The position numbers were made by a program, and so were the translations under genes. Positions 31,279 through 44,408 of a stretch of 46,915 bases of DNA are shown piece after piece. The stretch's first letter is position 1; each line of letters opens with the position of its first letter. The stretch comes from a virus: positions 1 to 46,915 of IMG/VR virus record IMGVR_UViG_3300006927_003862; one strand, given 5' to 3'. The notes beneath the pieces were generated by a model. It was not told where the DNA came from and ran no database searches. It was given only the letters and a program-made list of their open reading frames with translations.

Positions 31279-31617
31279 CTAAGCTATCCCCAATACACGC
31301 AGAGCGTCTTCTAAACTCAGAGGAATGCTAATTAAGTCCCCATTTTTAATGTCTACTTCGGTTGCGAACCCATTATACCACGCAATAATCCACCAATACG
31401 TAGGATCACCATAGTGTGTGTGAGCGAGCTTATAAAAACGATCTCCATATTTCCAAATGTATGTAGTGGAAGGTACTCCTATTCTATCATTAACAGATGG
31501 CTGGCGCATTACGGGCGTCTCATATTGACGAACCCCCTTTAGATCACGTTTGGTGCGCAAAAAACTATAGTATTCGCTACTATTATATAAAATATTGTAT
31601 TTTCTGTATCTTGGCAT
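31279..31617 (-). CDS. LysM-domain baseplate wedge protein (T4 gp53-like)
   Basis: A 112-aa protein whose second half is a LysM-like fold: YIWKYGDRFYKLAHTHYGD, YWWIIAWYNG and NGDLISIPL, the pattern of gp53 and XkdP-type baseplate proteins. The N-terminal half (RYRKYNILYNSSEYYSFLRT) is the usual phage extension. In T4, gp53 joins neighbouring baseplate wedges. AGGATAAAC lies before the ATG. Confidence 0.75.
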   Translation of the reverse strand: MPRYRKYNILYNSSEYYSFLRTKRDLKGVRQYETPVMRQPSVNDRIGVPSTTYIWKYGDRFYKLAHTHYGDPTYWWIIAWYNGFATEVDIKNGDLISIPLSLEDALRVLGIA

Positions 31618-33823: not shown

Positions 33824-36376
33824 TTACATTGCCCCCTCGATTGCTTCACGCACCACTTCTCCAATGGTGTCGAGCACCCCTTCACTTAAGAACCGCCGGG
33901 TTTCCTCGGCATCCATTACTATTTTAACGGTTTGGGTGGTAGCTGGATTAATCTCTTTGACCAACATTGGGAAATCTTCGGAGTAGCCCGCATATTCCCC
34001 CTCTTCTTCAACCTCCTCTTCTTCTCCGCCGCCGGCAACTCCGCCCGTAATTAATGCTGCTCCTAAGATACCTGCTAATTTAGTTGCGTCAGTTGTTCCG
34101 AAGCCGGATAATTCTGCCTTCAATTGGCTGACCGCGGTGGCCACTTCGTCTAGTCGTGTAGCTCCGTCGATCAGCCACCATACACTATCGGTAAATTGAG
34201 CGAGAAGGGGAATCGTTGGACCTAAGAATCTAAGGGCCAAGCCCAAAAGGCCAAAGGCGAGGGCCATGGCGCCAGCGGCGGCCGCGGCCAAAAAGCCATC
34301 GCCCGCAATTGTACCCAGGGGCACAGCAAAGGATGTCAATGACTCTGTATGAGCACCCAGATATTCAGGGTTGATAACTTCAAAAAGCCTCGTAAAGGAA
34401 TCTACTATCGTCGAAATTCCTTCAGCCATTATCTTCACAGCGAAGCCGGCTGCCACAAAGGCAGCCCCCATAACAGCTACAGCCCCAATCGCAGGTGTGA
34501 GTTTTCCTCCAATTGCGCCAAATGCTATAAAGGCGACCGTTATAATCCCTAAACCGATTCCCAATTTCATTATAATATCATTGATAAATTCCATCTCATC
34601 TGAATCGAGCCCAGAAACCGAACGAATGAGTTCTGCGAATCCTATTGCCATTTGACCTAAAGATAGCGCGACCCCAGAAATGGCGGCTCCCAAGGCAATA
34701 GCCTTAATAGCAAATGAGCCCGCTGCCGTGATGGCCTCCCCCATCGCTACGACGCTCTCCTCTGTGGTTTTGGTTTCCTCTGATTGCCAGAAAGTTAACA
34801 ACTTCCACAGACCAACAGCTATGAATTTAACTGCATTAAACGCTGCCATCGCGACCGTGGCCAATATTGTAGCCACTTTCCACGCTACCATAACGCCAAC
34901 CACCACCAGTGCAATGGTCGCAATTCGTTTAAGGAGCGCAGGATTTTGGCGCAACCAGCCAACAAAAGAGCGCATTGCATCAATCAGGGGCATAAATACT
35001 GGAATCATATCGAGGAACAGGTTTTTAAGCTGATCTTGAACGCTCTGCATTGCCGCGGCTTCTTCGCGCATCTTGCGATAGTCCTCTTCGGTCTTTTGCA
35101 CCCCCATCCCCAAAGAGTCTAAATCTCCGGAGAGTGCGGCTGCGAGTTCCGCTTCATCCTTAAGTCCCAATTGTTGAGTGTAGAATTTCTTTTGATAATA
35201 CGACATGGAATCAAAGCTCATGCCGGCGTCCATGATGGAGTTACGAATCATCTTAAATCGTTCCACGGGATCGGTTTCCATCATCAGATCCATAGCATTG
35301 ACCATGTTCCCGCCAATGGCCGCATTGAGCATTCCGGCTTGCTTAGCTGCACCTTCAAATGTATCAAATTTTCCTGTGATGTCTAAGAGGCGACCAACTT
35401 CGATACCAGTAATCTTAGAAACGCGCTGAAGATCTTTAAAGACCCTTACACCATCCTTTCCAAATTTGGCCAAAGAGCCGCCGGCAGCTTTAAAGTCAGC
35501 CATCATCTTTTGTGGTGCTACGCCAATAGATTGCGCATAGGTAACCATGCCGGTGGCCGCTTTGGACGCGTCCACCCCTGACAATCCCATTGCCTTGGTC
35601 ATATTCTGGATTGCGCCGGCTGCGGCCGCGTTGGATACTCCAAATTCACCAAGCACAGCTACCGTTTTTGCTATCTCGCCGCGGGCTTTGGGGGAAATCA
35701 TCGTAAAATCAGTATAGGAATTAAAAAGGGCAGTTGCGGCGCCGCTGGCTTCTTGCATGCTGACGCCGGCCAACCGTGTTGATTCATAAACCCCCGTAAC
35801 TTCGCGCGCAAAGCTCGCAGACGCGCCGGTGGTCTTTCGGAACTTGGACTCCATCTCATCCGCCGCGAAGGCTAGCCCGATTACAGCATCAATAAAGCCT
35901 AAAATAGTATCCGTGGCAAATGTTTTAACAAAGGCTGTCATCGCTGGGATGCCGCCCTTTACGGCATCCGTTAATTTAAGAAAATGTGAGGTAGATAGAA
36001 GGGTGTTGTTGGCGTACTCGCTAGCCCAGATGCCGGCGGGCGAAAGTGCTGTAGCTAAATCTTGCGCAGCTTTAACAGATTGCTCAAGAGAAACGTGGGT
36101 AGCCTCAATTTGCTTCGCTACTAGCTCTGCTTCTTCCTTCTGTCTCTCCAGGTTTTTGATCTGTTGCAGTGACTGCTTAGAGACATTCCCTGAAAGTTTG
36201 GCCTTCTTTTGAAGAATCTCGACTTGCTTACCAAGAACGTTGGCTTCTTGTTGTGCTTTGAGAAATGCGCCTTCTTTAGACTTGGCTGTCTTCTCATACA
36301 TCGCCAACAGCTTTTCTTCGGCGGCTAACTGTTGATGGAGTACCTCAAGACTACCTTTACCGGATTTCTTCGCCAC
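33824..36376 (-). CDS. Tail tape measure protein
   Basis: 850 aa. An N-terminal coiled coil (about 1-110, Lys/Glu/Gln rich) is followed by Ala/Gly-rich helical sequence with the phage tape-measure pattern GVSMQEASGAATALFNSY and VDASKAATGMVTYAQSIGV. A strongly hydrophobic region from about 490 to 760 contains several transmembrane-like helices, and the C-terminus is acidic (GGEEEEVEEEGEYAGYSEDF). It sets tail length and spans the tube. The order tube, chaperones, tape measure, baseplate is the standard one. The start is GTG at 36376 after GAGGAG. Confidence 0.9.
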   Translation of the reverse strand: MAKKSGKGSLEVLHQQLAAEEKLLAMYEKTAKSKEGAFLKAQQEANVLGKQVEILQKKAKLSGNVSKQSLQQIKNLERQKEEAELVAKQIEATHVSLEQSVKAAQDLATALSPAGIWASEYANNTLLSTSHFLKLTDAVKGGIPAMTAFVKTFATDTILGFIDAVIGLAFAADEMESKFRKTTGASASFAREVTGVYESTRLAGVSMQEASGAATALFNSYTDFTMISPKARGEIAKTVAVLGEFGVSNAAAAGAIQNMTKAMGLSGVDASKAATGMVTYAQSIGVAPQKMMADFKAAGGSLAKFGKDGVRVFKDLQRVSKITGIEVGRLLDITGKFDTFEGAAKQAGMLNAAIGGNMVNAMDLMMETDPVERFKMIRNSIMDAGMSFDSMSYYQKKFYTQQLGLKDEAELAAALSGDLDSLGMGVQKTEEDYRKMREEAAAMQSVQDQLKNLFLDMIPVFMPLIDAMRSFVGWLRQNPALLKRIATIALVVVGVMVAWKVATILATVAMAAFNAVKFIAVGLWKLLTFWQSEETKTTEESVVAMGEAITAAGSFAIKAIALGAAISGVALSLGQMAIGFAELIRSVSGLDSDEMEFINDIIMKLGIGLGIITVAFIAFGAIGGKLTPAIGAVAVMGAAFVAAGFAVKIMAEGISTIVDSFTRLFEVINPEYLGAHTESLTSFAVPLGTIAGDGFLAAAAAGAMALAFGLLGLALRFLGPTIPLLAQFTDSVWWLIDGATRLDEVATAVSQLKAELSGFGTTDATKLAGILGAALITGGVAGGGEEEEVEEEGEYAGYSEDFPMLVKEINPATTQTVKIVMDAEETRRFLSEGVLDTIGEVVREAIEGAM

Positions 36377-36430: not shown

Positions 36431-36697
36431 TTAGCCACCCTTATCACCACCACCAAATGTTTGCATTGCCGCCATATTAGGCGGAAGGGCAGGCTGGTTG
36501 TGGCTGCTTAGAGTTTGGGTACTCGATCCGCCCTGACCACGAGAGGCGCGTTCGCTCGCTTCTCGCTCATCCTCTAATTGGCGCAACAGCCGTTTAATAA
36601 ACCACAATCGTAGTCCCACAGGAAGATTATAGGCTTCACTAAATGACCAGCCACCCGCATATTTTAGAAAGAAGAACTGTTCATACACGCTCTCCAT
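36431..36697 (-). CDS. Tail assembly chaperone, downstream frame (probable frameshift product)
   Basis: The frame is open from 36862, overlapping the upstream gene, but its clear protein-like part begins at FFGLTDDYMESVYEQ. The first plausible ATG, 36697, lies 4 bp after the upstream TGA and has no Shine-Dalgarno sequence. Residues include GGWSFSEAYNLPVGLRLWFI, a block typical of small tail proteins of T4-like phages, and a C-terminal Gly/Ser/Gln tail ending GGGDKGG. A +1 (or -2) shift on a run of seven T just upstream would fuse it to the 288-aa protein. As a stand-alone it would have 88 aa. Confidence 0.65.
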   Translation of the reverse strand: MESVYEQFFFLKYAGGWSFSEAYNLPVGLRLWFIKRLLRQLEDEREASERASRGQGGSSTQTLSSHNQPALPPNMAAMQTFGGGDKGG

Positions 36698-36701
36698 GTA
36701 A

Positions 36702-37568
36702 TCATCGGTCAGGCCAAAAAAAGTCCGCGTTGAGCGGAACCTCCATGTCTTCGGCATATTCACACTCGGTGCAAGCAAAGTGTTGGGACAAATCAACATT
36801 GGGGGCAGCCAGTCGGTAAGCATGCCGAAGATGACGCGCATCCATGGTAGGAATGTTGGCAATTAAATAATTGATCGCATCTGCAGATGAATCATCGTTC
36901 ACGGCCACCACCATATTAAAGAGCGAGCGCGTAACTGCACGTTCGTGCACCTTTTGCTTGCGATCTTTTTCCATGCCGGCTACTAATGCCTTCTCATCCT
37001 TGCCGGTCATCAACTTAAAGGTTACTGTAAGTTGTGTACGCGGCAGCGTAACATTAAAGGTACCATCTTGATTATTTGCCACTTCCAAATCGGCAGCGTC
37101 GCCGCCGGCATAAATGCTGGCTGTTTGTAAATCAAAAGTATGCTCTACCATAGTAGCACACTGGGGGCATGTCACCTTGGTTGGGTACTGACTACCATAG
37201 CCTGAGATTCGGGTGGCAATAATAACTGCGTTCCGGTCTCCAACTAGTAAGGAGTCTGGGTCGATGCGCTTATCTACAATAATATTTGCGATTACACGAT
37301 CAATTGCTACACCCTTCTTAAGAAGAGTGCGCGATGTGAGGATATCTTCCTCTTTGGCCGTCATTTGCCGAATTTCAATGCTATCAGCACCACAAAGAGG
37401 GTGACCCTCTCCGTAGAATTTGCCTTCTGACGGGAGTTCTACAAACTCGGTCGGAATGACGAAAGAAAACCCACTGGAATCCCCTGCAGCTTGTGCTTGC
37501 ATAACGGGGAGCGGTGGGTTTGTATCGGGTTGTTGAACGCCTCCTAGGCGATCCTTATTTCTAGACAA
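36702..37568 (-). CDS. gp26-like baseplate/tail assembly protein with zinc motif, 288 aa
   Basis: It resembles the T4-like gp26 family: LPSEGKFYGEGHPLCGADSI, EIRQMTAKEEDILTSRTLLK, VDKRIDPDSLLVGDRNAVI. Two CxxC knuckles (TCPQCATMVEH near 140 and FACTECEYAEDME near 268) probably bind one zinc. Its position before the tape measure is where tail assembly chaperones lie in many tailed phages. The start is TTG at 37568 with GAGGTG upstream. Translation normally ends at FFWPDR; see the frameshift finding. Confidence 0.75.
   Translation of the reverse strand: MSRNKDRLGGVQQPDTNPPLPVMQAQAAGDSSGFSFVIPTEFVELPSEGKFYGEGHPLCGADSIEIRQMTAKEEDILTSRTLLKKGVAIDRVIANIIVDKRIDPDSLLVGDRNAVIIATRISGYGSQYPTKVTCPQCATMVEHTFDLQTASIYAGGDAADLEVANNQDGTFNVTLPRTQLTVTFKLMTGKDEKALVAGMEKDRKQKVHERAVTRSLFNMVVAVNDDSSADAINYLIANIPTMDARHLRHAYRLAAPNVDLSQHFACTECEYAEDMEVPLNADFFWPDR
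36713..36719 (-). promoter_or_regulatory. Candidate programmed frameshift site (T7 tract)
   Basis: In the upstream frame the codons read GAC TTT TTT TGG. Slipping +1 (or -2) on the seven T gives Phe-Phe-Gly-Leu-Thr-Asp and enters the downstream frame a few codons before the TGA. The tract lies 9 bases before that TGA. Confidence 0.55.
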
Positions 37569-37586
37569 TATACACCTCTATTTTAT

Positions 37587-38174
37587 CTATACAACGAAGA
37601 ATTCGTTACCACCACCAGCGATTGCCACTGATGAGTTGGCCGTCTCTACTCTCGCCCAATCGTATTTGAGAGTCACAGACATTTCAATTAAGTCATCTTC
37701 TCCGTATGCCAAATCGCCGTACTTAACTTCTGTAATAAAAGCGTTCCATAAGGTCCAAGTGTCTACTGGGGCGCCTTGTGCATCGATTTGCGTAATAATT
37801 ACTGCTCCGAGTGCTCCGGCGGCCTTTGCCTTTGACATTGTCGTTAGAGACGTCGCATTGGTTGGCGGAGAATATCCTGATTGTACCACAATGTCTGAAA
37901 GAGTTGCAGTCATATCTGGATTAACAGGATCAACAAGAGTAAGAGTAATATCCTGCCACGTTACGTTGCCCGGATAGAAAAACGTGTGGTTGAGATACTT
38001 GTGCTCGGCCGCGTTAATTTGAAAGCTCGGCTTTGTAACTGTTTTGGCATACCACATAGCGGCGCCTCCAGTAGCGCCGGCATCAATACCTTGAAACTCT
38101 ACGCTAAATCTAAACTTACGCTTAGGATCTTTAAGTTGTGAATTCTCACCAAAATTTTCTGACCAAAATGGCAT
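37587..38174 (-). CDS. Tail tube protein (T4 gp19-like)
   Basis: A 195-aa protein with gp19-type features: an N-terminal DPKRKFRFSVEFQGI, KPSFQINAAEHKYLNHTFFY, PGNVTWQDITLTLVDP and a C-terminal strand LIEMSVTLKYDWARVE. Hexameric rings stack to form the inner tube under the sheath. It directly follows the sheath genes. A single tube gene serves two sheath genes. Confidence 0.88.
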   Translation of the reverse strand: MPFWSENFGENSQLKDPKRKFRFSVEFQGIDAGATGGAAMWYAKTVTKPSFQINAAEHKYLNHTFFYPGNVTWQDITLTLVDPVNPDMTATLSDIVVQSGYSPPTNATSLTTMSKAKAAGALGAVIITQIDAQGAPVDTWTLWNAFITEVKYGDLAYGEDDLIEMSVTLKYDWARVETANSSVAIAGGGNEFFVV

Positions 38175-38241: not shown

Positions 38242-41200
38242 TTAGTCGTCGAAGGACGCTCCCGTGGACATGATAACAAAGTCAATTGCGATGTATTCGA
38301 TGGCGCGCGCAGGTTTGATCATAATCTTCGCATATAGAATGTTCTGATCAATTAAGTCGGGCGTCGTCGTGGATTCATCTAAGACTAACTTATAATCTGT
38401 AATTCCAAAACTGGTTTTAACGTTAGCTAAGAAGGGCTCAACTAACGACTTGAATCGGTTCCACGTGGCTTGCACATTCTGTTCGAAAAGAATTTGTGTT
38501 GAGAGGATAGAAATCTGCTTCTTCAAGTAGATTACCAGTCTCCGTACATTAATTCTATCCAGCGCCGATCTCTTCTCCTGTAAGGTCTTCTGACCAAATA
38601 CCACAATACCTGTGGAAGGGAAGGAAGCGATGGGGTTAATGGCTGCTTCGTATAAATCGTCTCGCTCGTCGGGAGATAGCTTCTCGGTCACCCCACTAAT
38701 GGGAATGCCGGCGGCGCCCTTAGTAAGAGAGCCGCGGTTAAAGCCGGCTGGAGCAAACCAAATCTTGGACTTGCTTTCTGAACTGGCGAGAACGCCCATC
38801 ATGGCTACAGTGGGTGGCACCCAGAACTGCTGTCCGGTAGCCTCGTCCGTCGTTTGAACCCACGGATAGAAGGTGCAACCGTAACTAGAGTCGATTCGGC
38901 GATCTTTCACTGCGATGGCTGCCTGCACGGGGGTGGTACCAATACGGGCCTGCTTGGTGCTCTTGTAAGCCTCATGAGGCGGGATGTAAACATTGGGAAG
39001 ATCAATGAGGGCCAACGCGTCGGCACGATCTTCGCATACATTAACCATATGAGTGGTCAAACTGGCCAGCGTAAGACCCGGGGCACTCAAAAGATTCACG
39101 TCCACTGCTTCCGGATCGGATACAGTGTCGATAGCCCTCTTCCATGTATAAAAGGCATAATTATTGGTGTTTGTACTGGATGCATCCATCCCATCATTAT
39201 ACATGGGATCGGGCTTCGTAATGTCAAAGCCATCAAAGCCGCCCCAGAAAGGCGCAGTAAACTTGTTATACTCTGCATCTAGAATGTCTCGGTAAGAGCC
39301 TGAAGTGTATGATCTTGACTTCTCATCTCCTCGTGTGGTCTCCGAAGCACGAGACCCGGAAAGATAATAGAAGAAGTTGCTTGATCCACTTTGAACTACA
39401 TCGTCCAAAGAGAACATATAGCCCCAGCGATCAATTCCACCGCCCGGCGTGGAGGTTGTGGGGTCCGCAGGAATGTTCGTGTCCCACAGTCGGAGGGGTT
39501 CGAATGCACTCCGATCAGATCGGGTGCTTGTGCGCGTTCGTGTGGTGCTAAATCCAAAATATGCATTGGTGGGGTCGCTTAAGCCGCCGTCAGATGCTGA
39601 CAACCGCAGTCGGTCTCGGGGAAACAGCAGCGATGCTGTAATCCACGATCCATATCGGCCATCATTGTCGGGGCCGGGCCAGTCGCCGCCGTGGGCCGCG
39701 TTGTTGGTCTGGTCGCCACCACCAGAAACTATTAGCTGGCATCGATAGCTGCCGCCGGCGGTACCCAAAGCTTGTAGGCCAGATCGTGCGTATGAACCAG
39801 ACTCCTTGCCCAAAGCAGTATAGGAAGGGCCGCTGGTGCCGCTTAAGTCAGTAAACTTGGGCGGCCCAAAATAGCCAAATGGTAGGAAAGTCGGGTCTGT
39901 GGCGCCCGCTTCGACGTCGGCGTTCATTTCAACATACACAAATTTAGAGTTGTTGGGGTATTCGCCGTAAAGCCGCAAACGTCGCTCACTTTCGGACCAT
40001 GATGTATATTGATCTCCAATCTTTCGTGCCACAAAGTTGGGAGAAGTGGGATCCAGATTGCAATTATCAAAACGTTCCAATACAATGACGTTTCCATCAG
40101 TGTCGGTAAACTGTCGTAATACTACAGAAAAAGTACCATATTGATTGGCTGTCGTCGTGGAGACTCTAATTTTTTCAATTGAAACTTTAACATTCTTGTG
40201 CAACCATTCGCCGTGGCCGCGGCCCTTAAGTCGGAAAAGCTTCTGCTGGCTTGATGCTACATAAGCAGCCGGTAAACCAGCGTCCTGGGAAATAAACCAC
40301 CCTGCTACGGCTTCGCGCGCATTAAGTCCTTTCATGTACTGCGGGCCCACGGTGCTGGCCATCGAGGATCCGGATGCAATAGCAGTCAAAACACCTTGAA
40401 GGGCGTCGGCGGTAGTTAAGCTTCCCAGCGTCCACCTACAATATTGTTCGAATGTCTCCCCTAACCAATAATTTGTTTGTGCTTGAGAGGGAAAGAAGTT
40501 GCTCGCTGTTAAATTACCAAGTTGGGGGCTCGTGTTAAAGCAATTGCGAATAAAAGTTTGTTTAGTGTCGTCCATGCTAAACGCTACACTGGCGGTTTGA
40601 TTAGGCATAGCATGAAGGAGAATTTTAAATTCATTAGTAGTGGCCATCTGTCCCAACATCTTCCCGATGCCACTGCTAATACCGCCGCCCTGGTTATCCC
40701 CGGGGGCACTTCCGGTGGGTGTGATGCCACCGCGCGCCGTGCCGCTAAGATAAATCGAACCACTATCTAGGTACCAAATAGCTGCTAAGCGTCCTCCGCG
40801 TGTCTCGCCGGTTTGTTCTTGCAAACCAGAGCCCGACGGGAACAGCCACAAGCCATATGCACCACCATTTCGGTTGCTTGCGCCGGCTGGGTCATATCCA
40901 GCCGCATTCTGCTGAGTCTGCCAGCCTGCTAGCCCTCCGGGTTCGGTGATGGTAGTGTCTTGGTGTCCCAGAAGGCGCACGTATGTGAGGGGCGCGACAT
41001 TGGCTCTCAAAAAGGCCTTGGCTGCATAGCCTCCATACATAGTGGAAGCGGTGTTTCCATCGCGATATACATCAGGCGCTCCGCCACCTGGAACCGTTTC
41101 GCCAAACATTGTTACAAATTCTGAATAAGATTGTACTTTAACAGGTTGCATCGCAATACCGCGCCGGGCACGACCTACAACAACCGGCCCAATCGCTTCT

Positions 41201-41280
41201 GCCGATTTGGGAATAAAGGAATTATCTATTTCGTGAATAAAAACCCCAGGAGAGACGAATTTAAAGCTTTTAACTGACAT
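38242..41280 (-). CDS. Tail sheath protein, copy 1 (1012 aa)
   Basis: A T4 gp18-type sheath. The N-terminus is FVSPGVFIHEIDNSFIPKSA, then PVVVGRARRGIAMQPVKVQS. The C-terminal core has SSYGCTFYPWVQT, PPTVAMMGVLASSE, FPSTGIVVFGQKTLQ, INVRRLVIYLKKQI and FEQNVQATWNRFKSL, and the last segment IEYIAIDFVIMSTGASFDD. At 1012 aa it is much larger than T4 gp18 (659 aa), with extra outer domains between about residues 130 and 620. It is a close paralogue of the next gene upstream. Contraction of the sheath drives the tube through the envelope. AAGGATAAAC precedes the ATG. Confidence 0.93.
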   Translation of the reverse strand: MSVKSFKFVSPGVFIHEIDNSFIPKSAEAIGPVVVGRARRGIAMQPVKVQSYSEFVTMFGETVPGGGAPDVYRDGNTASTMYGGYAAKAFLRANVAPLTYVRLLGHQDTTITEPGGLAGWQTQQNAAGYDPAGASNRNGGAYGLWLFPSGSGLQEQTGETRGGRLAAIWYLDSGSIYLSGTARGGITPTGSAPGDNQGGGISSGIGKMLGQMATTNEFKILLHAMPNQTASVAFSMDDTKQTFIRNCFNTSPQLGNLTASNFFPSQAQTNYWLGETFEQYCRWTLGSLTTADALQGVLTAIASGSSMASTVGPQYMKGLNAREAVAGWFISQDAGLPAAYVASSQQKLFRLKGRGHGEWLHKNVKVSIEKIRVSTTTANQYGTFSVVLRQFTDTDGNVIVLERFDNCNLDPTSPNFVARKIGDQYTSWSESERRLRLYGEYPNNSKFVYVEMNADVEAGATDPTFLPFGYFGPPKFTDLSGTSGPSYTALGKESGSYARSGLQALGTAGGSYRCQLIVSGGGDQTNNAAHGGDWPGPDNDGRYGSWITASLLFPRDRLRLSASDGGLSDPTNAYFGFSTTRTRTSTRSDRSAFEPLRLWDTNIPADPTTSTPGGGIDRWGYMFSLDDVVQSGSSNFFYYLSGSRASETTRGDEKSRSYTSGSYRDILDAEYNKFTAPFWGGFDGFDITKPDPMYNDGMDASSTNTNNYAFYTWKRAIDTVSDPEAVDVNLLSAPGLTLASLTTHMVNVCEDRADALALIDLPNVYIPPHEAYKSTKQARIGTTPVQAAIAVKDRRIDSSYGCTFYPWVQTTDEATGQQFWVPPTVAMMGVLASSESKSKIWFAPAGFNRGSLTKGAAGIPISGVTEKLSPDERDDLYEAAINPIASFPSTGIVVFGQKTLQEKRSALDRINVRRLVIYLKKQISILSTQILFEQNVQATWNRFKSLVEPFLANVKTSFGITDYKLVLDESTTTPDLIDQNILYAKIMIKPARAIEYIAIDFVIMSTGASFDD
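39481..39531. repeat. 51-bp stretch identical to 42561-42611
   Basis: This stretch in sheath copy 1 is base-for-base identical to 42561-42611 in sheath copy 2, while flanking sequence has diverged at many synonymous sites. It encodes part of the block around RSDRSAFEPLRLWD. Likely recent gene conversion. Confidence 0.8.
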
Positions 41281-41342: not shown

Positions 41343-44300
41343 TTAGTCATCAAATGACGCTCCAGTGGAGGCAATGACGAAGTCAATAGCAATATATTCA
41401 ATAGCTCTAGCGGGCTTAATCATAATCTTAGCATAGAGAATATTTTGATCGATAAGATCCGGAGTTGTTGTTGTTTCATCAAGAATCAACTTATAATCCG
41501 TGATACCAAAGCGCGTCTTGACATTTGCCAAGAAGGGCTCGATAAGAGAGCGGAATCTGTTCCATGTTGCTTGCACGTTTTGCTCAAAGAGAATTTGTGA
41601 GGCGAGAATAGAAATTTGCTTCTTCAAATAGATGACCAATCGGCGTACATTAATTCTGTCTAGCGCTGATTGCTTCTCTTGAAGCGTCTTTTGTCCGAAT
41701 ACCACGATTCCCGTGCTGGGGAACGATGCAATCGGGTTAATGTTAGACTCGTAAAGGGTGTCGCGGTTCTTAGATGTCAGGCGCTCGGTAATTCCCGTTA
41801 CCGGGATACCAGCTGCACCTTCCGTCAAGCCGCCGCGATTAAATCCAGCAGGAGCAAACCAAATCTCGGACTTGCCTTCAGAGCTAGCGAGAACGCCCAT
41901 CATAGCCACAGAGGGCGGAATCCAAAGCATCTGACCTGTGCCTTCATCCCGGGTCTGAACCCATGGGTAAAAAGTGCAACCATAGCTAGAGTCGATTCGG
42001 CGGTCACGCAAGGAGCGCGCTGCGCCCGCTGGTGTCGTGCCGACCCGGTCTGCCTTGGAAGAGTAGTATGCCTCTTGAGTGGGAATGTAAACATTGGGAA
42101 GATCAATGATAGACAAGGCGTCAGCCCGATCTTCACACACATTCACCATATGCGTCGTCAAATCTGTCATCGTAAGGCCGGGCGCTACGAGCATGTTCAT
42201 GTCCACCGATTCAGGATCGGACACAGTGTCGATGGCGCGCTTCCATGTATAATACTCATAACTGGTAAACCCGGTGTCGACACCGGCCGTCATACCTTGG
42301 TTATACATCGGGTCGGGCTTCGTGATGTCGAAGCCATCAAACCCTCCCCAGAAGGGAGCAGTAAACTTGTTATAGCCAGCATCCAAGAGATTCTTGTAAG
42401 AACCAGACGTATAGGACGTTTCCAAGGCGCGTGAGCCTGACTGATAATAGAAGAAGTTGGTTGAGCCACTTTGAACCACATCGTCAAGCGAGAAGATATA
42501 ACTCCACCGGTCTACACCGGGGGTCGCCGTTGCGGTGGTGGGATCGGCCGGAATATCGGCGTCCCACAGTCGGAGGGGTTCGAATGCACTCCGATCAGAT
42601 CGGGTGCTTGTCCGAGAGCGCGCTGTGCTAAAGCCGAAGTAAGCCCTTGTCGGGTTGCCAATTCCGCCGTCGGAAGCCGACAGTCTAAGGTTGTCCTTGG
42701 GGAAAAGGAACGAGGCTGTGATGAAGGCCCATGAGCCGCTGGTAGTCTGGATGGCGATGGTCGAGCCTGTGGCGGTGCACACCATGCCCACTATACCGGC
42801 TGCCGGGTTGTCGGCGGAAACTCCCCCCGAAACAAAGTTTCGAGAGAACTCATATCCTTTGCCTAGGTTTCCTCCTGCGATTTGGGCGGCGGCGCGCACA
42901 TAGGAAGCCGAAATATTTGCTGAATGTGCCCCATCAATGGGATATGCTCCCATGCTAATGGAACCAGTTCCCCATGCGCCACTTAGATCGGTAAATTTGG
43001 GGGGACCGAAATAGCCGAAGGGAAGAAGACTTGGGTCGGTTGCTCCAGCTTCTACATCAGTGTTCATGTCCACATAAACAAATTTAGATTGGTTAGGATA
43101 GTCGCCATATAGCTTCAATCGCCTAGAAGTGGGATCCCAAGAGGTGTATTTGTCTCCTATCTTCTTGGATATAAAGTTAGGAGAAGCTGGGTTAAGAGTG
43201 CAATTATCGAAGCGCTCTAACACCACCACACTGGAGTCAGTATCAGTAAACTGGCGCAACACTACAGAAAAGGTGCCATATTGGCTGGATAGCGTAGTGG
43301 AAGCACGAATCTTTTCAATAGAAACTTTAACATTCTTATGGAGCCATTCCCCGTGTCCTCTACCTTTAAGGCGGAACAGTTTTTGCATGTTCTGGGGCAA
43401 GTAGGAAGCGGGGGCTTCTGTATCTTGCGAGATAAACCAACCAGCTACCCCTTCCCGGGCGTTCACACCCTTCATATATTGTGGCCCGGTGCCGGTGCCC
43501 ATCCCAGATCCAGAAGCAATTCCAGTGAGTACTGCCTGTAACTGCTCATTTGCAGTGAGGCTGCTTCCCAACGTCCATCGCAAATCTTGTTCGAAGGTTT
43601 CGCCTAGCCAGTAATTAACTTCGCTATTGGCGGGAAAGAAACTGCTTGCATTGGAGTTCCCCAATTGTGGATTGGTGTTAAACTTCTTGCGAATAAATGT
43701 TTCTTTGGTGTCATCGAAACTAAACCGCACACTAGCGGTGCTGGCCATGCTGGGTCCGGTGATCAATACATTAAATTCATTAGTCGAAGCTATCTGCCCT
43801 ATCATTTTGCCGGTGCCTGTTACATGATTCAAGGTGGGGCCTGTTACATCCCATGGGGCAGGCCTGCCGTTTCGAATTGCGCCACTTAATGCAATCGAGC
43901 CACTATCAATATACCAGATGGCGGCGAGGTGTCCTCCGCGTGTCTCGCCGGTTTGTTCGTCCCAGGCAGTTCCTGACTTGAAAAGCCAGAGCCCGTACGC
44001 GCCGCCATTAGCTGCAGCATTGGTGCCGACGTTGTTCGCAGTCTTCCATCCTGCTAGAGCATCTGCAGACGCATTGTTGCTAGCGGCCTGATGGCCCAGA
44101 AGACGAATATAGGTGAGGGGAGCGACGTTCGCTCGCAAGAAAGCTTTTGCGGCATAAGTGCCGTACATGGGAGATGTAAAGTTTCCATCGCGGTAAACAT
44201 CTCCGCTACCTCCGCCCGGTACGGTATCTCCAAACATCGTCACAAAATCCGAATAGGACTGTACTTTGATTGGCTGCATCGCAATCCCGCGGCGCGCCCT

Positions 44301-44408
44301 TCCTACAACTACCGGGCCAATCGCATCGGCCGTCTTCGGAATGAAGGAGTTGTCTATTTCATGGATAAACACCCCAGGAGATACAAATTTAAAGCTTTTA
44401 ACTGACAT
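41343..44408 (-). CDS. Tail sheath protein, copy 2 (1021 aa)
   Basis: It has the same architecture as copy 1. The first 28 residues differ by one substitution, and the last 250 residues are nearly colinear (SSYGCTFYPWVQTRDEGTGQ, FPSTGIVVFGQKTLQEKQSA, WNRFRSLIEPFLANVKTRFG). Most differences lie in the outer domains (about 110-330 and 470-560). It carries an extra piece not in copy 1 near residue 490 (GTGSISMGAYPIDGAHSANI onward), and copy 1 in turn has other residues there. Both have intact reading frames and their own AAGGATAAAC ribosome sites, so both are probably made. The sheath may therefore be mixed, or the copies may be used in different zones of the tail. Confidence 0.93.
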   Translation of the reverse strand: MSVKSFKFVSPGVFIHEIDNSFIPKTADAIGPVVVGRARRGIAMQPIKVQSYSDFVTMFGDTVPGGGSGDVYRDGNFTSPMYGTYAAKAFLRANVAPLTYIRLLGHQAASNNASADALAGWKTANNVGTNAAANGGAYGLWLFKSGTAWDEQTGETRGGHLAAIWYIDSGSIALSGAIRNGRPAPWDVTGPTLNHVTGTGKMIGQIASTNEFNVLITGPSMASTASVRFSFDDTKETFIRKKFNTNPQLGNSNASSFFPANSEVNYWLGETFEQDLRWTLGSSLTANEQLQAVLTGIASGSGMGTGTGPQYMKGVNAREGVAGWFISQDTEAPASYLPQNMQKLFRLKGRGHGEWLHKNVKVSIEKIRASTTLSSQYGTFSVVLRQFTDTDSSVVVLERFDNCTLNPASPNFISKKIGDKYTSWDPTSRRLKLYGDYPNQSKFVYVDMNTDVEAGATDPSLLPFGYFGPPKFTDLSGAWGTGSISMGAYPIDGAHSANISASYVRAAAQIAGGNLGKGYEFSRNFVSGGVSADNPAAGIVGMVCTATGSTIAIQTTSGSWAFITASFLFPKDNLRLSASDGGIGNPTRAYFGFSTARSRTSTRSDRSAFEPLRLWDADIPADPTTATATPGVDRWSYIFSLDDVVQSGSTNFFYYQSGSRALETSYTSGSYKNLLDAGYNKFTAPFWGGFDGFDITKPDPMYNQGMTAGVDTGFTSYEYYTWKRAIDTVSDPESVDMNMLVAPGLTMTDLTTHMVNVCEDRADALSIIDLPNVYIPTQEAYYSSKADRVGTTPAGAARSLRDRRIDSSYGCTFYPWVQTRDEGTGQMLWIPPSVAMMGVLASSEGKSEIWFAPAGFNRGGLTEGAAGIPVTGITERLTSKNRDTLYESNINPIASFPSTGIVVFGQKTLQEKQSALDRINVRRLVIYLKKQISILASQILFEQNVQATWNRFRSLIEPFLANVKTRFGITDYKLILDETTTTPDLIDQNILYAKIMIKPARAIEYIAIDFVIASTGASFDD
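42561..42611. repeat. 51-bp stretch identical to 39481-39531
   Basis: Partner of the identical patch in sheath copy 1. A shorter shared patch of 28 bp is at 40791-40818 and 43931-43958. Confidence 0.8.

Follow-up and report, generated by a model that had tools for sequence, protein, structure and literature searches.

A predicted +1 programmed frameshift in a T4 gp26/gp51-type tail assembly chaperone pair of a marine phage

Results

Two overlapping reading frames between the tail tube and tape measure genes

Positions 1 to 46,915 of the IMG/VR record IMGVR_UViG_3300006927_003862, a viral sequence from a marine phage, form the window, that is, the whole stretch of DNA analysed here. Its minus strand carries, in this order, two tail sheath genes, a tail tube gene, a gp26-like open reading frame (ORF1), a second frame (ORF2) and an 850-amino-acid predicted tape measure gene. 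The overlapping ORF1/ORF2 pair, in which we predict a +1 programmed frameshift, thus sits between the tail tube and tape measure genes, the latter assigned by position and size only. The features of this region are:

37587..38174 (-): tail tube protein, gp19-like (PF06841, E=9.5e-7; phrog_4542, E=5e-28)
36702..37568 (-): ORF1, gp26-like short form of a tail assembly chaperone (TAC-N), 288 amino acids; TTG start, with GAGGTG upstream at 37573-37578
36725..36737 (-): upstream hairpin, candidate +1 stimulator; stem CCGC 36737-36734 / GCGG 36728-36725, CUCAAC-like loop
36716..36722 (-): slippery tract TTTTTTT, zero frame TTT TTT TGG; synonymous sites near-invariant, all variants allowing +1
36702..36704 (-): zero-frame stop TGA, end of the short form, read from the sequence and from relatives with the same geometry
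36431..36715 (-): post-shift ORF2 (GLTDDYMESVYEQFFF...), 94 codons plus stop in a conserved +1 frame, C-terminal domain of the predicted 378-amino-acid long form (TAC-NC)
36695..36697 (-): sole ATG close to ORF2, dispensable for the family
33824..36376 (-): predicted tape measure protein, 850 amino acids, directly downstream; judged by size, position and helical/hydrophobic make-up, with no family match

The minus-strand junction reads ...GTT CCG CTC AAC GCG GAC TTT TTT TGG CCT GAC CGA TGA. As an earlier note on this DNA had described, ORF1 runs through GAC TTT TTT TGG, with the seven-T (T7) tract at 36722-36716, and stops soon afterwards, at the TGA at 36704-36702. The ORF2 frame is +1 relative to ORF1 (equivalently -2) and is, as also noted there, open through the tract: it extends from TTG 36862 to 36431 (143 amino acids), with protein conservation limited to the 94 post-tract codons (36715-36434). 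Its ATG at 36697-36695 begins 4 nt after the ORF1 stop (TGA TTAC ATG). The absence of a Shine-Dalgarno sequence from this ATG was likewise borne out: none lies at a normal distance, and a GGAGG sits ~45 nt upstream.

The frame geometry is conserved in relatives

ORF1 relatives were gathered with five different seeds and gave 264 readable junctions, among them those of Flavobacterium, Microcystis, Bacillus, Listeria and Streptococcus phages in GenBank. The comparison of the T tract and both frames in related genomes, proposed in the earlier note, could thereby be made. In 261 of the 264 junctions, a few of them truncated at a contig end, ORF2 takes the +1 frame and stays open beyond the ORF1 stop, the geometry reaching relatives at about 25% protein identity, and both frames are kept in all close relatives (80/80). 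Bacterial and archaeal bins contributed 17 loci, and the same geometry was found in all 15 of their readable gp26-like junctions (L271-L285); L284 is a second copy region on the record of L283, one locus (L286) was too short, and L287 is a divergent, unrelated outlier. At the tract, synonymous codon identity was ~1.0 in three clades (background excess 0.05-0.07). Overlap with ORF2 accounts for part of the synonymous constraint downstream of the tract, but not upstream. The conservation counts, together with the near-complete synonymous identity at the tract, argue that the two-frame arrangement is more than chance, and the comparative evidence strongly supports the programmed tail chaperone frameshift that had been proposed.

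We also surveyed the start codons available to ORF2. The window's ATG is present in about 70/79 close relatives and replaced by ATT or ATA in 10/80, while the residues FFGLT that precede it are conserved. Of two other clades, only 17/90 and 20/62 members offer an ATG in the interval -30..+60 around the ORF1 stop, although GTG or TTG is commoner than ATG there, so that a missing ATG alone is no proof. From this survey and the 261 conserved junctions, the second ORF is kept in a fixed alternative frame without a start of its own. A few loci differ: in L260 and L265, ORF2 occupies another frame and has an ATG of its own, and the slip site, TTC TTG TAT or TTC CTT TGG, is lost in L260 and altered or weakened in L265; in L085 ORF2 starts at TAATG. 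Two further loci, L388 and L389, group with these three; all seem to replace the frameshift by a separate ORF2 start.

The GenBank records of Flavobacterium phage immuto, Streptococcus phage GXN1, Bacillus phage SP-15 and Listeria phage LIS04 (L083, L086, L087, L088) have no annotated second chaperone part. This part has been missed or misstarted in the deposited immuto, SP-15, LIS04, GXN1 and Microcystis Mel-JY01 genomes.

The slip site and the direction of the shift

In 191 distinct junctions, the zero-frame slip codons were TTT TTT TGG (142), TTT CTT TGG (27), TTC TTT TGG (9), CTT TTT TGG (3) and TTT CTA TGG (3), plus six rare forms. Every variant allows +1 re-pairing of the P-site tRNA-Phe or tRNA-Leu. 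In the prfB context, UUU is one of the P-site codons more prone to slip (PMC10885494). By comparison, 14 of the 191 exclude -2, so that re-pairing two bases back, as in a Mu-type shift, is not common to all members; relatives with TTC TTT TGG, TTT CTA TGG or TTC TTT CGT have the same geometry with no -2 re-pairing possible. The earlier note had left the shift as +1 or -2. A frameshift is supported and, because several relatives cannot re-pair at -2, its direction can be narrowed to +1, provided that a single mechanism serves the family.

The base before the run was surveyed in the 146 junctions carrying TTTTTT. A preceding T was found in none of them, though T makes up 36% of third positions, and among two-fold codons GAC/AAC/AGC occurred 88 times and GAT/AAT/AGT never, at a background C use of 24-36%. 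The C-ending codon therefore removes the -1 heptamer (X XXY YYZ), and ORF2 itself lies in +1.

A hairpin directly upstream of the slip site

In the window clade, the upstream codons GAG, CCG, GCG and GAC are fixed, and CCGC/GCGG pairing forms a hairpin whose stem stops 1-2 nt short of the first slip codon in 35/35 distinct upstream sequences. Its stability gave z = -3.3 relative to synonymous recodings, whereas 14 control offsets averaged near zero. Folding energies in this clade were -7.2 kcal/mol upstream versus a background of -1.5, and -3.2 versus -2.6 downstream; downstream structure was looked for in the +1 clades and not found. With an upstream hairpin adjoining the E site, an Escherichia coli 70S system shows more +1 and less -1 frameshifting (PMC6321510), and the hairpin described here probably plays a similar stimulatory role. 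A conserved upstream GGAGG was considered as a frameshift-stimulating Shine-Dalgarno sequence and rejected; since it lies 17 nt from the tract and is not conserved across clades, the hairpin is the better candidate.

ORF1 and ORF2 resemble the two parts of T4 gp51

ORF1 matched PF12322 (T4_baseplate, T4 gp26/gp51) with E=1.9e-17 and 64.1 bits, well above the cut-off of 24.5, and also matched phrog_150 (baseplate hub). PF12322 covers T4 gp26 over its full length and residues 1-201 of the 249 of T4 gp51, and both proteins are listed as hub assembly chaperones (PMC3004832). ORF1 and ORF2 were modelled with AlphaFold2 as separate chains. The ORF1 model (pLDDT 88) had as its top match among 350,542 PDB chains the HK97 TAC 2ob9 (prob 0.90, weak E of 0.16, TM-score 0.48 by target); the ORF2 model was helical (pLDDT 81).

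A PHROGs search of ORF2 returned no function. ORF2 is homologous to the 53-residue cyanophage gp51 (hhalign 96.5%, E 8.9e-10; score 51.2, with a maximum of 18.9 among 40 shuffled profiles). The cyanophage protein is in turn homologous to the C-terminus of T4 gp51 (98%, E 1.8e-13). Sullivan et al. (PMC3037559) described cyanophage gp51 as a truncated form resembling only the C-terminal region of T4 gp51. Direct profile comparison of ORF2 with T4 gp51 yielded weak scores, and the link is made through the cyanophage protein. Because ORF1 is a PF12322 protein and ORF2 matches the gp51 C-terminal extension by this route, ORF1 corresponds to T4 gp26 and the predicted fusion to the T4 gp51 architecture.

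ORF2 also resembles DUF6760 (PF20546), a resemblance only, as the window protein scored 16.4 bits and two relatives 20-23 against a cut-off of 27. In six actinobacterial loci (L296-L300, L304), an ORF2-like DUF6760 gene follows an ORF ending in ...CPxC...GGRLGES, and CTGGGGGAATCGTGA, a GTGA start-stop overlap, is conserved. This arrangement is possibly the contractile injection system counterpart of the chaperone pair. In the DUF6760-linked extracellular contractile injection system loci, the arrangement differs by this GTGA overlap and the upstream protein has no PF12322 match.

The cyanophage gp26/gp51 pair

Prochlorococcus phage P-HM1 and relatives (76 junctions, 60 distinct) have the same gene pair, with a U run at the homologous DFF and the second part out of frame. 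In contrast to the window clade, the way into this part is a -1 shift at U UUU UUC or U UUU UUA, and the stimulator candidate is a strong downstream hairpin (-9.6 versus a background of -2.0 kcal/mol); upstream of the site no hairpin was found (-1.1 versus -1.2 kcal/mol). Several members of this group lack the ATG annotated for gp51. Since this ATG is not conserved, gp51 of cyanophages is probably no gene in its own right, and gp26/gp51 (L307:8677-9557; L308-L387) looks like a -1 programmed frameshift.

Discussion

We consider it highly probable, from comparative sequence evidence, that ORF1 and ORF2 encode the short and long forms of a T4 gp26/gp51-type chaperone by means of +1 programmed frameshifting. 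Most ribosomes would terminate at TGA 36704 and release the 288-amino-acid short form. A minority, with peptidyl-tRNA-Phe on the P-site UUU, would advance by a single base, re-pairing from UUU to UUU, before reading GGC and going on to 36434, yielding a 378-amino-acid fusion that would share its first 284 residues with the short form. The small hairpin, refolding just behind the ribosome, probably favours this forward movement, while the C that replaces T before the U run would block -1 slippage. Reasoning from lambda gpG/gpGT, we would expect the shared part to bind the tape measure protein and tube subunits to be brought in through the C-terminal part.

Other explanations of the locus start from the same features. 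A -2 shift at the T7 tract, as in phage Mu, would insert one extra Phe (ADFFFGL), and the tract on its own does allow P-site re-pairing two bases back; the relatives listed above that keep the geometry without this possibility, all of which can re-pair at +1, make it very unlikely. ORF2 might instead be a separate gene whose translation starts at ATG 36697, 4 nt beyond the ORF1 stop, through termination-reinitiation, for which the TGA TTAC ATG spacing is suitable. The presence of the ATG in most close relatives and the true separate starts of L260, L265 and L085 also speak for it. Yet 10/80 close relatives replace this ATG by ATT or ATA, 73/90 and 42/62 members of the two other clades have none at -30..+60, the conserved FFGLT codons lie upstream of it, and the slip site is lost or weakened just where a real start exists (L260, L265), so that a separate gene is a highly improbable account.

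The homopolymer itself invites two further readings. RNA polymerase might slip on the T7 tract and produce mRNAs with a changed number of U residues, but seven T is short, and relatives with TTTCTTT, TTTCTAT or TTCTTTC keep the geometry with no run longer than three or four; we find this hardly credible. Homopolymers are likewise prone to sequencing or assembly indels, which could mimic a shift, as could a decayed gene; hundreds of independent contigs share this state with the GenBank phages of all five host genera, which effectively refutes such an error. Because slip variants without a long T run keep the geometry, neither homopolymer error nor polymerase slippage serves as a general explanation.

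Several observations nevertheless weigh against +1 frameshifting as set out here. The hairpin is strong only in the window clade and in the LR756508/L250-L263 clade, is weak elsewhere (z -0.8 to -1.1) and is missing from the Streptococcus phage. Nor does TTT or TGG, the zero-frame codon in the A site, stand out as a codon for pausing. Finally, loci within a clade share kinship, and junction counts do not equal independent events.

The predicted +1 system resembles lambda gpG/gpGT in having an overlapping ORF pair between tube and tape measure that gives a short form and a rarer fusion, but lambda shifts by -1 at GGGAAAG rather than by +1 at UUU-U/C or CUU-U, and the two chaperone families share no detectable sequence. 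T4 shares the protein families, ORF1 being PF12322 like gp26 and gp51; there the long form comes from a separate gene (PMC10885494), on the opposite strand, whereas the window has one gene and a predicted frameshift. The chaperone of the haloarchaeal myovirus HSTV-2 is similar in its tube-chaperone-tape order and its very likely +1 frameshift (PMC5009743), but is not PF12322 and has the site TTT CGC. P-site +1 slippage is also known from prfB (CUU UGA) and Listeria PSA tsh/cps (CCC-U).

Frameshifted tail chaperones are already known, and the +1 version of the T4-type pair is a variant. G-T frameshifting has been described as widely conserved except in T4, and HSTV-2 was listed there as very likely +1 (Atkins et al., 2016, PMC5009743). 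In the passage of PRFect that cites Vladimirov et al. (2022), some T4-like phages have one short gene and, apart from it, a gene for the long fusion (PMC10885494), and a passage in PMC12846349 attributes to the same work polyT -1 signals in T4-like TAC genes. The earlier note's remark that T4-like members have not usually been described in this way thus holds for T4 itself, which uses a separate gene, but not for the cyanophage -1 signal or for the polyT -1 signals as that passage reports them. Part of our findings, above all the cyanophage -1 signal, may already be published in Vladimirov et al. (2022); leaving that work aside, we found no description of the +1 group in the literature.

Taken together, the comparisons make it likely that sister lineages shift in different directions (+1 here, -1 in cyanophages) at a shared protein position within one orthologous T4-type pair. 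The stimulators would be mirror images, with the hairpin immediately before the site for +1 and after it for -1, and the codon choice would forbid the opposite slip. In T4, gene duplication would have taken the place of the shift, and in other lineages a separate start would have done so. The distant T4 relatives place T4 gp26/gp51 within the conserved tail-chaperone frameshift scheme. They also allow +1 and -1 programming to be compared in nature at a single site of one protein, where the effects predicted for upstream and downstream hairpins are directly testable.

Elsewhere on the minus strand, the two tail sheath-like genes (38242-41280 and 41343-44408; 1012 and 1021 amino acids) are tandem paralogues with nearly identical ends and a divergent middle, and 31279-31617 encodes a 112-amino-acid LysM-like protein that matches phage baseplate wedge PHROGs (phrog_7145).
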